Positions 8,533-17,350 of a stretch of DNA of 64,000 nucleotides are shown in pieces (within the stretch, counting starts at the first letter, position 1; the number at the start of each line of letters is the position of its first letter). The translations under genes were made by a program, and so were the position numbers. Source of the stretch: Oceanispirochaeta crateris (GTDB lineage: Bacteria; Spirochaetota; Spirochaetia; DSM-2461). The DNA lies in contig NZ_CP036150.1 of the NCBI RefSeq assembly GCF_008329965.1, forward strand, positions 2,956,439 through 3,020,438. Direction: 5' to 3'. The notes below the pieces were generated by a model. The model was given only the letters and a program-made list of their open reading frames with translations. It was not told the origin of the DNA and did no database searches.

Positions 8533-10791
8533 ATGAATAAAGAGCTTCATTCTAAGAACAAGAACATAGAGGATGTACTGAATCTCATTCCTTCAATGAT
8601 TTGCACAACCACAAAAAAAGGAACTTTTGAAAGTGTGAATTCTGCATTTTCTGAAGGGCTTGGTTATTCACAAAAAGAATTGCGATCAATGTCCTTCTTT
8701 GATTTAATTCATCCAGAAGACATCGCACCAACTGAAAGTAAAATGGATTCTCTGCGTTCTGATAACAGTAAAATTATATTTACCAATCAATACAGAACTA
8801 AGAGTGGATCATACAAATTCTTCGAATGGGAAATGACCTGTTCAACTGATGGCACCTATTTTGCTGTTGCCCATGATATTACAGAACACATGGTAGCAAA
8901 AGAATCTCTGAATCAATATAAGCATATAGTTTATAGCTCTACAGATATGATCGCTTTCATTGATAAACAATACAACTTAATAGCCGTCAATGAAGCATTC
9001 TCTAAAGCTTTTAATTTGACTCCTGAAGATTGTATAGGAAAACAATTGGTCAGTGTTTTTGGTAAAGACATGTTTAATAACGCCATAAAGCCTCTCGCTT
9101 CCAAATGCCTGGAAGGAAAAGAAATAAAACAGGAAAACTGGCGTCATTATCCAGCTTATGGAAGACAGTATGTTGAAGCGGCTCATTACCCATATCGAAA
9201 CCATGAAAATGAAATTATGGGGTGCGTTGTATATGTGCGGAACAGAACAGCACAAAAGCTGGCACAAGATGCTTTAAACGATGAACGACGCCGACTTGAG
9301 AGTATTATCGATGGTGCAAATATTGGCACCTGGGAATGGAATATCCAGACAGGAGAAACAATATACAACCAGAAATGGGCTCAGATCCTAGGATATACAA
9401 TTGATGAGCTGGCTCCCATTAGCGTCAAAACTTGGGAAAATCTGGCCCATCCTGACGATCTAAAACAATCAGGAGATCTCCTTAAACGCCATTTTTCAGG
9501 AGAGTTGCCATATTATGATCTTGAATGCCGGATGAAGCATAAGAACGGCAGTTGGGTCGCAATACATGACAGGGGGAAGGTTGTTACCAGAACCGCAGAT
9601 GGAAAACCGCTGATGATGTATGGCACACATTCCGATATTACAGAGCGGAAACAGATTGAAGAAGAAAGACAGAGATTACAAAAAATAGAATCTCTTGGGA
9701 TTCTGGCAGGAGGCATTGCACATGACTTCAATAACCTTCTTGCTGGTATTTACGGCTATATTCAATTAGCAATGCTGGAAACCAAGGAAGAGAAAGTAAA
9801 AAACTATCTCGCAAGGTCTTTGAGCAGCACAGACCGGAGCCAAACCCTAACTCAACAACTGTTGACATTTGCCAAAGGCGGTTCTCCCATAAAAAGAATT
9901 GCAAAACTTTTTCCATTGATTAAGGATGCAGCACAAATGGCTCTCAATGGATCAGCAATTTCCAGCCACTTCTTGATAGATGAAAACCTATGGTCCTGCA
10001 ATTATGATAAAAACCAGATAACTCAGGTCATAGACAACATCACTATAAATGCCATACAAGCCATGCCTAATGGCGGAATGATTGAGTATTCTGCCCGTAA
10101 TATTGTTTTAACCAGAAAAGAGAATCATTCGCTAGCTGCCGGAAACTATGTGAAAATATCAATACGTGACAACGGGATTGGAATGTCGAGTGAAATTCTA
10201 CCAAGAATTTTCGATCCTTATTATACAACAAAGTCAAAGAGTAATGGTCTCGGCCTTGCAAGCTGTTTCTCAATTATCAAAAGACATAATGGTTGTATAG
10301 ATGTTGAATCAACACTGGAAGAAGGAAGCACTTTTCATATTTACTTACCTGCATTCACAGAAAACTACACAGAAAAACCGGAAAAATCTAAGAAAGTCTC
10401 ATATGCACAAGTTAAAACAATCTTAGTCATGGATGATGAGGAACTAATACGGGAAGTAATAAAAGAACAACTAGAAACCTTAGGGTATACTGTAGTTCTC
10501 ACAGAAAATGGAAATGAAGCAATAGATTTTTTTAAGGCAGAGACGGCGGCAAACCGCAAGCTTGCAGGAATGATATTCGACCTGACTGTTCCCGGAGGGA
10601 TGGGAGGGAAAGAAGCAATCAGGAAGATTAGAGAAATATGTTTGGACACGCCGGCTTTTGTTGCCAGCGGATATTCGACAGATCCCATTATGGCGAATCC
10701 TGAAGGGTATGGATTCAATGCAAGTATTAGTAAACCCTTTATGATTCAAGACCTAACAGAAATGCTCGAAAACCATTTGAAAAGGGTTTGA
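8533..10791 (+). CDS. Soluble hybrid sensor histidine kinase: three PAS domains, HisKA/HATPase, C-terminal receiver
   Basis: 752 residues with no hydrophobic segment, so cytoplasmic. PAS domains lie at about 10-125, 130-245 and 255-375; the third has the PAC-like end YGTHSDITERKQ. The H box is GGIAHDFNNLLAGIYGYIQL (~395), the N box NITINAIQAMPNGG, and the G boxes IRDNGIGM and SNGLGLAS. The C-terminal receiver (~630-750) has MDDEE, the phospho-acceptor in MIFDLTVPGGMGG and the Lys in SISKPF. The start ATG has AAAGGA upstream. It stands alone and divergent from the sugar locus. PAS ligands (redox, heme, small molecule) and the output partner cannot be told from sequence. Confidence 0.92.
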   Translation: MNKELHSKNKNIEDVLNLIPSMICTTTKKGTFESVNSAFSEGLGYSQKELRSMSFFDLIHPEDIAPTESKMDSLRSDNSKIIFTNQYRTKSGSYKFFEWEMTCSTDGTYFAVAHDITEHMVAKESLNQYKHIVYSSTDMIAFIDKQYNLIAVNEAFSKAFNLTPEDCIGKQLVSVFGKDMFNNAIKPLASKCLEGKEIKQENWRHYPAYGRQYVEAAHYPYRNHENEIMGCVVYVRNRTAQKLAQDALNDERRRLESIIDGANIGTWEWNIQTGETIYNQKWAQILGYTIDELAPISVKTWENLAHPDDLKQSGDLLKRHFSGELPYYDLECRMKHKNGSWVAIHDRGKVVTRTADGKPLMMYGTHSDITERKQIEEERQRLQKIESLGILAGGIAHDFNNLLAGIYGYIQLAMLETKEEKVKNYLARSLSSTDRSQTLTQQLLTFAKGGSPIKRIAKLFPLIKDAAQMALNGSAISSHFLIDENLWSCNYDKNQITQVIDNITINAIQAMPNGGMIEYSARNIVLTRKENHSLAAGNYVKISIRDNGIGMSSEILPRIFDPYYTTKSKSNGLGLASCFSIIKRHNGCIDVESTLEEGSTFHIYLPAFTENYTEKPEKSKKVSYAQVKTILVMDDEELIREVIKEQLETLGYTVVLTENGNEAIDFFKAETAANRKLAGMIFDLTVPGGMGGKEAIRKIREICLDTPAFVASGYSTDPIMANPEGYGFNASISKPFMIQDLTEMLENHLKRV

Positions 10792-14077: not shown

Positions 14078-15583
14078 CTACTTAAATCTTTTTTGACAGT
14101 AAACAGTAATATCCTTCAAAGACTCAATACGGCGGGACATGTTTCCATCCCGAATATAAAACTGTTCATTTTTTCCTCCGCTTTTGCTGGTCATCGTAGT
14201 AAACAGAGGCTGTGAAGAAGACCTGACTGACACTTGGCAGATGTCTTTTCCATGGACTTCAATAAACTTAACATCTACATTCCTACTGACAAACGTTCCG
14301 TACATAGCTGAAGCAAGATTTCTCAAATGAAGTTCAAAGGTATCTCTATCTGGATGCTTAAGACTCTGGTAGTCCTGTTGAAGTCCCAAAGGTTTTCCAT
14401 CGTCACTTACACCGATAAGAAGATCTCCACCCGCACTATTTCCAAAAGCTGCAATGGATTTCATGATGACTTCTTCCAGTTTTTTATTGACACAGTTATC
14501 CCTGTAATCCCAGCGAAGAGAAGACTTAAACTCCAGTTTTTTACTCTCACCCTTCTCAATTACCTGCAACAGAAGCTCTTCCTCAGAAAGACGACGCCGT
14601 TCACGGTAATTTCCAAGAAAAAATAGGATGATCAACACCAGAAAAAGCAGAAAAAACGGGATTGCCGCCAGGACATAGAAACGGTCAAACTGACTGAAAA
14701 ATAGATCGGACTCGGGAAGTATGAAACCAATAGAGCTGCCATATTCATTAAGCTCATATAATAAAACAAACCACTTTTGCTCATCATATTCAATATGGTA
14801 TAGATTCTCCATTTCTGAAGAAGAAATTTCTTCCAGAACATGTTTGGTCAGATCATAATAATAATTATAATTTTCAGAGCCCTTTTCACCAAGACTGCCG
14901 GACCATCCCTTCAAAGGAGCACTATTCAAGGGAATCGTTATAAACTCACTCTTGCTAAAGGATGAAAAGAGAATGCCATCTTCATCAAAAATATCTTTAT
15001 AGAATTCAATAAAACGGAGGAGGGAAATATCAAGTGAGATTGTTTTTCCAGATGCAGAAGGCATCTCCAGAGTCACTGAAAAACCAGGTTCTCCTGTAGA
15101 AATTAGAGAGTGTATATTTGAAAGAAAGATAGTATCCGAATTTGATTTGGAGTCTTCTGGCAAATCCTTCATTTCTAATGGGATCTGTCTTATTTCTTCG
15201 TTTCCATTAATTTCACGGAGAATAAACCGTCCTTCCTCCAGAATGAAAGAATGATACTTCATCCCACTTCTGTAATTAATAGCGGCCACACCGGGTAATG
15301 ATCCAGATACAGCTCTGTTTAATAGGTTAAGGTTTGAATCTTCAAAATTCTCTGAAAAATCACCCGCTTCAATCCAGAAGGCTGAATTTGATAAAAAGTT
15401 GATCCATTCCGGCAAAATTGTCTGCATCTCACGATAAGGCCTGGAAACAATAGAATCAGACATGCTGTCATTCAGAAAATCTTTCAGCCGATTACTTCCT
15501 GCCATTACGAAAATGAGAAAAAGAGCTAACAGAATAGAAACAAAGGATAGAATCAGACTTTTATTGCTTTGAAAGAAATTCAC
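14078..15583 (-). CDS. Membrane-anchored AlbA_2 (Schlafen-like) domain protein with extracytoplasmic sensor region
   Basis: 501 residues. TM1 lies at ~9-30 (SLILSFVSILLALFLIFVMA) and TM2 at ~305-330 (FYVLAAIPFFLLFLVLIILF), enclosing ~270 residues outside the membrane, laid out like a histidine-kinase sensor. The cytoplasmic part (~345-500) is an AlbA_2 domain: GESKKLEFKSSLRWD, then IAAFGNSAGGDLLIGVSDDG. AlbA_2 domains usually sit in soluble ATP-binding or regulator proteins, so a transmembrane sensor-AlbA_2 layout is uncommon. The start is GTG with AGGAGAAG upstream. No defence genes are adjacent. A role in ligand-controlled nucleic-acid or nucleotide binding is a guess. Confidence 0.8.
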   Translation of the reverse strand: MNFFQSNKSLILSFVSILLALFLIFVMAGSNRLKDFLNDSMSDSIVSRPYREMQTILPEWINFLSNSAFWIEAGDFSENFEDSNLNLLNRAVSGSLPGVAAINYRSGMKYHSFILEEGRFILREINGNEEIRQIPLEMKDLPEDSKSNSDTIFLSNIHSLISTGEPGFSVTLEMPSASGKTISLDISLLRFIEFYKDIFDEDGILFSSFSKSEFITIPLNSAPLKGWSGSLGEKGSENYNYYYDLTKHVLEEISSSEMENLYHIEYDEQKWFVLLYELNEYGSSIGFILPESDLFFSQFDRFYVLAAIPFFLLFLVLIILFFLGNYRERRRLSEEELLLQVIEKGESKKLEFKSSLRWDYRDNCVNKKLEEVIMKSIAAFGNSAGGDLLIGVSDDGKPLGLQQDYQSLKHPDRDTFELHLRNLASAMYGTFVSRNVDVKFIEVHGKDICQVSVRSSSQPLFTTMTSKSGGKNEQFYIRDGNMSRRIESLKDITVYCQKRFK

Positions 15584-15699
15584 AGCTTCTCCTGATCATT
15601 CAAATGGATTTTTTTAGATACAATATCATTGAATTGAGAAGAGAATAACCTTTTTAAACATGCGTTGCAAACTTCCATCCTGATATGCCCAAAGCGAGA

Positions 15700-15956
15700 T
15701 TATCCAGAGTTGCATTTAATTCTCAAATGATTGGATTTATTCAGACAGATACTTTCATCATTCTCGGCGAGAATCTCTCCTGCATGGTCAGGATGACACA
15801 ATTCAAAAATTTTAACCTTCTTTACATCTTTGTCAAACTTAGCCATTGTTGTCTGCAGATCATGAACCGCGGGAATTTTCCAATCCAGTGCACCCACAGA
15901 CTCTTTAAAAAATCTTGAACTGTTTTTTCAAAATCATAGAGACTTTTACTTCTCAC
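15700..15956 (-). pseudogene. Frameshifted, truncated DUF302-family gene
   Basis: The minus strand encodes WKIPAVHDLQ and KIFELCHPDHAGEILAENDE, which I recognise as the core of one DUF302 subfamily. The preceding codons (SLYDFEKTVQDF) lie in another frame; a one-base change in the T-run at about 15907-15912 breaks continuity. After AENDE the expected conserved Pro-Met-Met-Pro/Cys segment is missing and the frame ends about 15 codons later. Intact members are about 130 residues; here only about 85 codons remain. It appears to be a decaying remnant with no obvious partner nearby. Confidence 0.6.
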
Positions 15957-16093
15957 ATATATTTACTTGCATACAGTATTTTAAATATATACTGCATACA
16001 AACAGATCTCTGGCCAAACTCTTTTGTAATTTCTTCTTTAAAATAATTTTATATTTATTAACCAATTTCTGAATGTATTACCACACTCTTGTA

Positions 16094-17317
16094 TTAGCTG
16101 GTTTCAAGACTATGCAATAATTTTAACGCTGGTTTAAAATCGGGGGCTAGTTTTAAAACAATCCGGCAATCCTCAATGGCCGATTGCAGTTTTCCTGCAG
16201 CGGCCAGAGTTTCTGCCCTGGCCGTAATGAACTCAATATTGTATGGCTCTGCTTTGATACACTCTTCAATGTCACTCAATGCGTCTGAAAGATTTCCATT
16301 GACTCGAGCATGCACGGCTCTATAATAACGGGCTTTTGTTTGTCCCGGATTTAATTCAATCGCCTGATTAAAATCTTCAAGAGCTGCGTCTTGCAAATTA
16401 CTTGAAAAATAAGCCATTCCTCTATGAACAAGAATAACTGCCCTTATATCATTATTGATCTTACGAAGAAGTATCGTGGAATAGATCTCAATTGCCTCAC
16501 TGTAGTGATTCTCGTTATGGGCAAGGAGTCCGCGGAGCAAAAGAGTATCAATGGTCTCCTGTATAATACTAGGGGGCTGATTTTTCTCTGGTGCCCTGGA
16601 TTCGGATTCTCTATCCTTTTGTGGATTCTGGCTGATACAATCATAAAAGTCTTTTCGCCGCTGATTGAGTGCGGAGTTGAGTTCTCGCTGGTAAGCCCTT
16701 ATTTCCTGAAACATAATATCAGACAGTGTAAGGTTCGCATTCAGTGCCGCAAGTTTTCTTTTCAATGGTTCATCAAGAGGTGAAAATTCTGACTTATAGA
16801 CCAGCTCATGTTCAACTTCTGCCCAGGCTTCCTGTAGGATGGTACGGACCTGAATTTCACAAACTAAGGGATTTAAAAAATCGAGGATGGGTGAATCGGA
16901 AGAGTAAGTATCCTCGGGTAGAACAATGAGAAAATGAACTGATTCATAACCAAAATATTGATAAGGATACTCTGCTCCTTTAACCTCATACTCTGTGATC
17001 TGAAATAATTCCTGAAGCATATTGGAAATAGCCTCAATCTCTTCCAGAAAAGGGCATATAATTCTGATTCCAAGAATATCTGTAATAGCTAGGGGCTTTT
17101 TGTCTTTACCCAAACTGATATTTCTAAGAAATTTTGCATGCCAGCTGGAAAATTCTTTGACACGATGACGAACCGTTACGGATAAACCCTTTTCATGAGC
17201 TCCAGCATAAATCATATCGTTCAGAATATTGAGAGTGGCAGAGAATGCAGGAAGAGCTTCATTATAACGGGTCTCCAGTTTTTCCTTAGCTTCGATGTGA
17301 AAGGTTGCTTCATCCAT
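16094..17317 (-). CDS. RelA/SpoT-type (p)ppGpp synthetase domain protein with C-terminal TPR repeats
   Basis: About 407 residues from the ATG at 17315-17317 (AGG upstream); an in-frame TTG at 17329 would add four. The N-terminal ~210 residues match the RelA_SpoT synthetase fold: ITDILGIRIICPF (~85), GYESVHFLI (~130) and CEIQVRTILQEAWAEVEHEL (~160). The catalytic-type residues and the EIQVRT box are kept, and no HD hydrolase domain is present, so it resembles a small alarmone synthetase. Residues ~265-405 form three to four TPR units (AVILVHRGMAYFSS, AIELNPGQTKARYYRAVHA, AIEDCRIVLKLAP). The TPR part probably mediates protein contacts or regulation. It precedes no clear operon partner. Confidence 0.88.
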   Translation of the reverse strand: MDEATFHIEAKEKLETRYNEALPAFSATLNILNDMIYAGAHEKGLSVTVRHRVKEFSSWHAKFLRNISLGKDKKPLAITDILGIRIICPFLEEIEAISNMLQELFQITEYEVKGAEYPYQYFGYESVHFLIVLPEDTYSSDSPILDFLNPLVCEIQVRTILQEAWAEVEHELVYKSEFSPLDEPLKRKLAALNANLTLSDIMFQEIRAYQRELNSALNQRRKDFYDCISQNPQKDRESESRAPEKNQPPSIIQETIDTLLLRGLLAHNENHYSEAIEIYSTILLRKINNDIRAVILVHRGMAYFSSNLQDAALEDFNQAIELNPGQTKARYYRAVHARVNGNLSDALSDIEECIKAEPYNIEFITARAETLAAAGKLQSAIEDCRIVLKLAPDFKPALKLLHSLETS

Positions 17318-17350
17318 ATTTACCTGCAATTATAGTATACTAATAGTTTT

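Follow-up and report, generated by a model that had tools for sequence, protein, structure and literature searches.

A transmembrane dCache sensor joined to an AlbA_2 (Schlafen-box) domain: a candidate one-component receptor in Oceanispirochaeta crateris

Results

A gene for a two-helix membrane protein ending in AlbA_2

The window, meaning the whole 64,000-nucleotide stretch of the Oceanispirochaeta crateris genome analysed here, carries on its minus strand a gene whose product joins a large extracytoplasmic region to an AlbA_2 domain (Table 1). Kyte-Doolittle hydrophobicity of this protein is maximal at residues 10-28 (3.0) and 304-322 (3.2), leaving about 270 residues between the two transmembrane (TM) helices, and two such separate hydrophobic segments arose in just 4 of 2000 shuffles of the protein. 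Together with conservation at the protein level, this shuffle test ruled out a chance or artefactual open reading frame. Because the second helix precedes the positively charged motif NYRERRR, the AlbA_2 domain is placed in the cytoplasm. The first-pass annotation had proposed a large outside region and two membrane segments; hydrophobicity, shuffles and the structural model all agree with it. Thus, the fusion of a transmembrane sensor to AlbA_2 is confirmed, and the receptor layout is well supported.

Table 1. Features of the receptor gene and its product, in window coordinates.
Feature	Position	Strand	Remarks
dCache-TM-AlbA_2 receptor gene	14078..15583	minus	501 aa, GTG start
Ribosome-binding site AGGAG	15589..15593	minus	5 bases 5' of the GTG; read from the sequence
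TM helix 1	15500..15559	minus	residues 9-28; part of a long model helix, 4-72
Extracytoplasmic dCache (double-Cache) sensor	14684..15499	minus	residues 29-300; structure and profile matches
TM helix 2	14612..14680	minus	residues 302-324; then NYRERRR, positive
Juxtamembrane linker, short	14552..14611	minus	residues 334-344 helical; no HAMP found
Cytoplasmic AlbA_2 / Schlafen-box domain	14084..14551	minus	residues 345-500; Pfam, model and structure matches
E346 and E351	14531..14548	minus	equivalents of rat SLFN13 catalytic E205 and E210
E370 and K375	14459..14476	minus	probable SAMD9 E218 and R221 equivalents, by spacing only
D394	14402..14404	minus	SLFN13 D248 equivalent

Pfam, NCBIfam and PADLOC scans returned no other convincing family in the receptor protein. 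AlbA_2 relatives are publicly annotated generically, as 'ATP-binding protein'; we rejected an AAA or ATP-binding reading, as Pfam detected no AAA family in the window protein. The gene is the sole AlbA_2 gene found in the source genome, and a promoter and terminator scan gave scores no better than those of shuffles. No cognate kinase or partner gene adjoins it. Directly upstream, at 15600-15960 on the minus strand, lies a broken small gene, one frame of which contains DWKIPAVHDLQTTMAKFDKDVKKVKIFELCHPDHAGEILAENDES amid stops and frame breaks and resembles a DUF302 protein. Further upstream, a minus-strand gene at 16094-17329 encodes a RelA_SpoT alarmone-synthetase domain with C-terminal TPR repeats. 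Elsewhere in the window, a plus-strand gene at 8533-10791 encodes a hybrid kinase that combines PAS repeats with HisKA, HATPase and receiver domains.

The ectodomain is a dCache sensor

The first-pass annotation had left it to structure prediction whether the outside region adopts a Cache or another fold. In an AlphaFold2 model of the window protein, built on 50 family members, a long N-terminal helix of the ectodomain leads into two mixed alpha/beta modules, after which a further helix enters the second TM helix. This is the dCache arrangement, in which a long helix at the N-terminus precedes a pair of Cache modules, with a TM helix on either side. Residues 27-302 of the model matched 3lic best (Z 13.1 over 233 residues, 3.7 A), followed by the dCache structures 7prq (Z 13.1) and 3lif (Z 12.9), and when L064, a distant family member from Bacteroidota, was modelled too, its ectodomain matched 3lic with Z 15.1. 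The assignment comes from structure and profile comparison and not from Pfam, which detected no Cache domain (dCache_1) in the window protein and matched dCache_1 in 2 of 50 relatives, with a best E of 3.4e-5.

A profile of 13 ectodomains matched a profile of the ectodomains of other proteins from the same phyla with 99.5% probability (E 2e-22, 283 columns). These matched proteins mostly carry Pfam dCache_1 and are fused to an adenylate/guanylate cyclase or a histidine kinase. Because it is homologous to the sensors of cyclases and histidine kinases, the ectodomain is a true dCache relative, of a kind that elsewhere drives textbook outputs. The receptor thus shares its TM-dCache-TM layout with dCache chemoreceptors, histidine kinases and adenylate cyclases, and differs from them in lacking a kinase, cyclase or chemotaxis output. 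The related cyclase and kinase sensors also keep the DPRxRPWY amino-acid ligand signature, which is absent from the window ectodomain, so that ligand binding by this sensor is putative and the signature gives no guide to the ligand. A 975-aa relative (L115:1201-4125) combines a related first Cache module with GAF and HD_5 domains.

The AlbA_2 half retains a putative Schlafen-type active site

Pfam placed SLFN_AlbA_2 (PF04326) at residues 346-486 with E 8.8e-18 and 65.4 bits against a cut-off of 25.3. The AlbA_2 fold that had been proposed is borne out by the model, which has a pLDDT of 92-97 over residues 345-500, and by structure matches of this half to 3lmm (Z 13.7), to the human SAMD9 AlbA_2 domain with DNA (7ksp, Z 12.7), to the rabbit SAMD9 tRNase domain (9o0d, Z 12.2) and to SLFN13. 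Its role as the output of a receptor, on the cytoplasmic side, is likewise supported by Pfam, by the model and by the homology of the ectodomain to sensors with ordinary outputs.

The family sequence profile matched SLFN13 (5yd0, E 2.4e-5), and in this alignment, where the 5yd0 chain numbering is shifted by 13, SLFN13 E205, E210 and D248 correspond to E346, E351 and D394 of the window protein. In SLFN13, mutating any of the three lowers activity, both glutamates are indispensable, and tRNA cleavage needs these residues (PMC5862951). Eleven positions are invariant in 60 of 60 receptor-type relatives (E346, E351, K353, R357, D359, E370, K375, D404, D414, E417 and R421), a density typical of an enzyme, and column conservation is 67% in AlbA_2 vs 31% in the sensor. 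SAMD9 requires E184, E196, E218 and D241 as well as K198, K214 and R221 (PMC12331169); spacing suggests E346, E351, E370 and D394 together with K353 and K375 as possible counterparts. We rejected K367 as the equivalent of SAMD9 K214, since it is not conserved (K in 38 and P in 16 of 60), and K214 has no conserved counterpart in the receptor family. The output had been described as nucleic-acid- or nucleotide-binding; the conserved residues and the nearest folds point instead to an SLFN/SAMD9-type endoribonuclease.

The third catalytic position varies more: 54 of 60 relatives have Asp there, and the other 6 have Asn. Asn at 394 belongs, where it was read, to the probable Brachyspira family, occurring in most of that clade, and Asn is also found at the equivalent position in SAMD9L of some mammals (PMC12331169). 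This replacement would fit an AlbA_2 domain that binds RNA, DNA or a nucleotide without cutting, the signal controlling its tethering or titration at the membrane. We regard this as improbable, as the two pivotal glutamates are invariant in 60 of 60 members and Pfam found no nucleotide-binding family in the window protein.

Annotations have for years described AlbA_2 as a DNA-binding domain (PMC5445408, PMC6299218), and because that of human SAMD9 binds DNA in 7ksp, the protein could be a membrane-tethered one-component transcription regulator similar to ToxR or CadC, whose sensor controls DNA binding by AlbA_2. This reading is unlikely in our view. Pfam scans of the window protein and its relatives found no HTH or winged-helix domain, many of the invariant acidic residues make up an SLFN-type site, no adjacent target gene is conserved across clades, and the SAMD9 AlbA_2 domain is a tRNase despite the DNA in its crystals (PMC12331169). 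Both glutamates are also invariant in the receiver-AlbA_2 and GmrSD-AlbA_2 types compared; this indicates that the site is kept across AlbA_2 architectures and neither tells the substrate nor separates a nuclease from a DNA binder.

Each chain carries one AlbA_2 lobe, and the two-lobed pseudo-dimer core of Schlafen RNases was not found; a second lobe could come from a homodimer. A viral fold library gave weak AlbA_2-like and Cache matches only, chiefly from giant viruses.

The receptor type is widespread, with related signalling and restriction-like fusions

With each species represented by a single genome, a scan yielded 388 relatives of the same AlbA_2 subtype, of which the best 80 were kept for the family analysis. 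Among these 80 closest relatives, 49 are 480-600 aa long, nearly all with the order TM-ectodomain-TM-AlbA_2, a layout carried by Spirochaetota, Bacteroidota and Chlorobiota. Matches occurred in 18 of the 98 genomes related to the source genome, about 10 of which have the whole layout; one relative is 60% identical to the window protein over its full length, and eight others are about 30% identical. On the AlbA_2 tree, the receptor layout needs two changes and forms roughly one clade, and it may have had a single origin. The distribution is chromosomal and clade-wide: a spirochaete genus (g68, family f43) that is probably Brachyspira has exactly one copy in 26 of 26 genomes. In Bacteroidota the receptor is sporadic, since the full layout was present in 1 of 198 sampled genomes.

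Other fusions share the AlbA_2 subtype. Receiver-AlbA_2 proteins of Bacteroidota (L030:87-989, L037:77-979, L038:7770-8672 and L051:6765-7667) adjoin the receptor type on the tree and also have a signalling input; unlike the receptor, they are soluble and carry a phospho-receiver in place of dCache. No recognisable kinase gene lies beside their genes, and they are apparently orphan response regulators in which AlbA_2 serves as a two-component output. The idea that AlbA_2 can act as a signalling output thus finds support elsewhere too. GmrSD_N (DUF262)-AlbA_2 proteins of about 715 aa, from L045:4987-7116 and about 18 similar loci, fall outside on the tree and differ in being soluble, with a restriction-like N-terminus. 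Short AlbA_2 proteins of 256-272 aa (L117:1083-1850 and L125:1732-2547) have hydrophobic segments and no large outside domain.

Gene neighbourhoods argue against a defence role

The first-pass annotation had proposed a survey of homologues for conserved neighbours. Conservation was found in Bacteroidales, and no adjacent target gene is shared across clades. Besides L057, L064, L084 and L090, some 13 further Bacteroidota/Chlorobiota loci have the order ruvB-queG-receptor-Na/solute symporter-tadA. Here queG and tadA, two tRNA anticodon modifiers, surround the receptor gene, a pseudouridine synthase is also among the Bacteroidales neighbours, and truA-like genes lie near the receptor gene in two spirochaetes. 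These neighbours are weakly compatible with a tRNA link; those in Bacteroidales weigh little, because they belong to a single syntenic clade and so count as one event. In the probable Brachyspira loci (L108-L113 and L116), a thioredoxin-reductase-like gene adjoins the receptor in most of those read, and the neighbours in the window are unlike those of the 60% identical relative.

Bacterial Schlafen proteins have been reported to act against phages (bioRxiv 10.1101/2025.07.24.666596, as cited in PMC12839542), and among the GmrSD_N-AlbA_2 cousins the L045 protein matches the candidate defence family HEC-05. The receptor could accordingly sense phage entry at the envelope, the Schlafen domain then cutting tRNA and aborting the infection. 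We consider this quite improbable. The single copy throughout one genus and the conserved housekeeping neighbourhood in Bacteroidales speak against it, as does the fact that dCache sensors with known function mostly detect small molecules. PADLOC assigned 0 families to the window protein, L064 and L116, the receptor type had no phage and no plasmid matches, and PADLOC, phage and plasmid searches gave no sign of a mobile or defence island.

Discussion

Our model, towards which we lean slightly, is a one-component transmembrane receptor in which a dCache signal gates an AlbA_2 endoribonuclease, most likely acting on tRNA, and so lowers or re-tunes translation. We infer the nuclease output, the tRNA substrate, activation through a receptor dimer and dependence on a signal. 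The periplasmic dCache domain would detect a signal, and a continuous helix would transmit the resulting change to the AlbA_2 domain by way of TM helix 2 and the short HAMP-free linker. In the cytoplasm, AlbA_2 would act as a signal-gated endoribonuclease; since its SLFN and SAMD9 relatives cleave tRNA, this is also its most probable substrate. A receptor dimer could bring two AlbA_2 domains together, which is conceivable because dCache receptors are normally dimers; the rabbit SAMD9 domain forms dimers in crystals (PMC12331169). The RNA cutting would then lower or re-tune protein synthesis upon an outside signal. Several points count against this model: a membrane-tethered nuclease has to reach tRNA at the membrane, most of the probable Brachyspira clade lacks the third aspartate, the window sensor lacks the DPRxRPWY signature, and the two glutamates are shared with other AlbA_2 architectures.

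Both halves have well-studied kin. The SAMD9/SAMD9L tRNase domain has the same fold, likewise a single AlbA_2 lobe, and acids with likely counterparts in the receptor, and it too serves as a signal-gated effector, if the gating we propose holds. SAMD9 and SAMD9L differ in being cytosolic, STAND-type multidomain proteins, activated by virus or mutation, without membrane segments or dCache. SLFN11/12/13/14 share the domain fold and the aligned acidic triad; unlike the receptor, they have two pseudo-dimeric lobes, often a helicase, and are soluble, without a sensor or TM helix. In eukaryotes, the receptor RNase IRE1 unites an outside sensor, a TM helix and an inside RNase in one chain; the likeness would be one of logic only, as the folds are unrelated. 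The fuller proposal, a single-chain receptor ribonuclease of IRE1-like logic in which dCache directly switches Schlafen-type tRNA cutting, serving physiology and not phage defence as a core gene of an entire spirochaete genus, is tentative, and we put it somewhat short of an even chance.

A ligand-gated receptor of this kind had been put forward as new. The layout is not unique to this gene, belonging to a widespread family; the fusion itself was not found, as no paper describing Cache joined to Schlafen turned up in the searchable literature, a body that leaves out subscription papers and preprints. Both halves belong to known families; what appears new, judged by the literature searched, is their union in one-component receptors that end in a Schlafen-type domain. 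The outputs known for transmembrane receptors in bacteria comprise kinases, cyclases, diguanylate enzymes, chemotaxis and DNA-binding domains. If our reading is true, a Schlafen-output receptor would extend this range to the direct control of RNA, probably tRNA, and Schlafen nucleases would gain a physiological, non-immune role. The receptor would also offer a testable system for the switching of Schlafen nucleases, and the cell may thereby turn down translation directly upon an outside signal.
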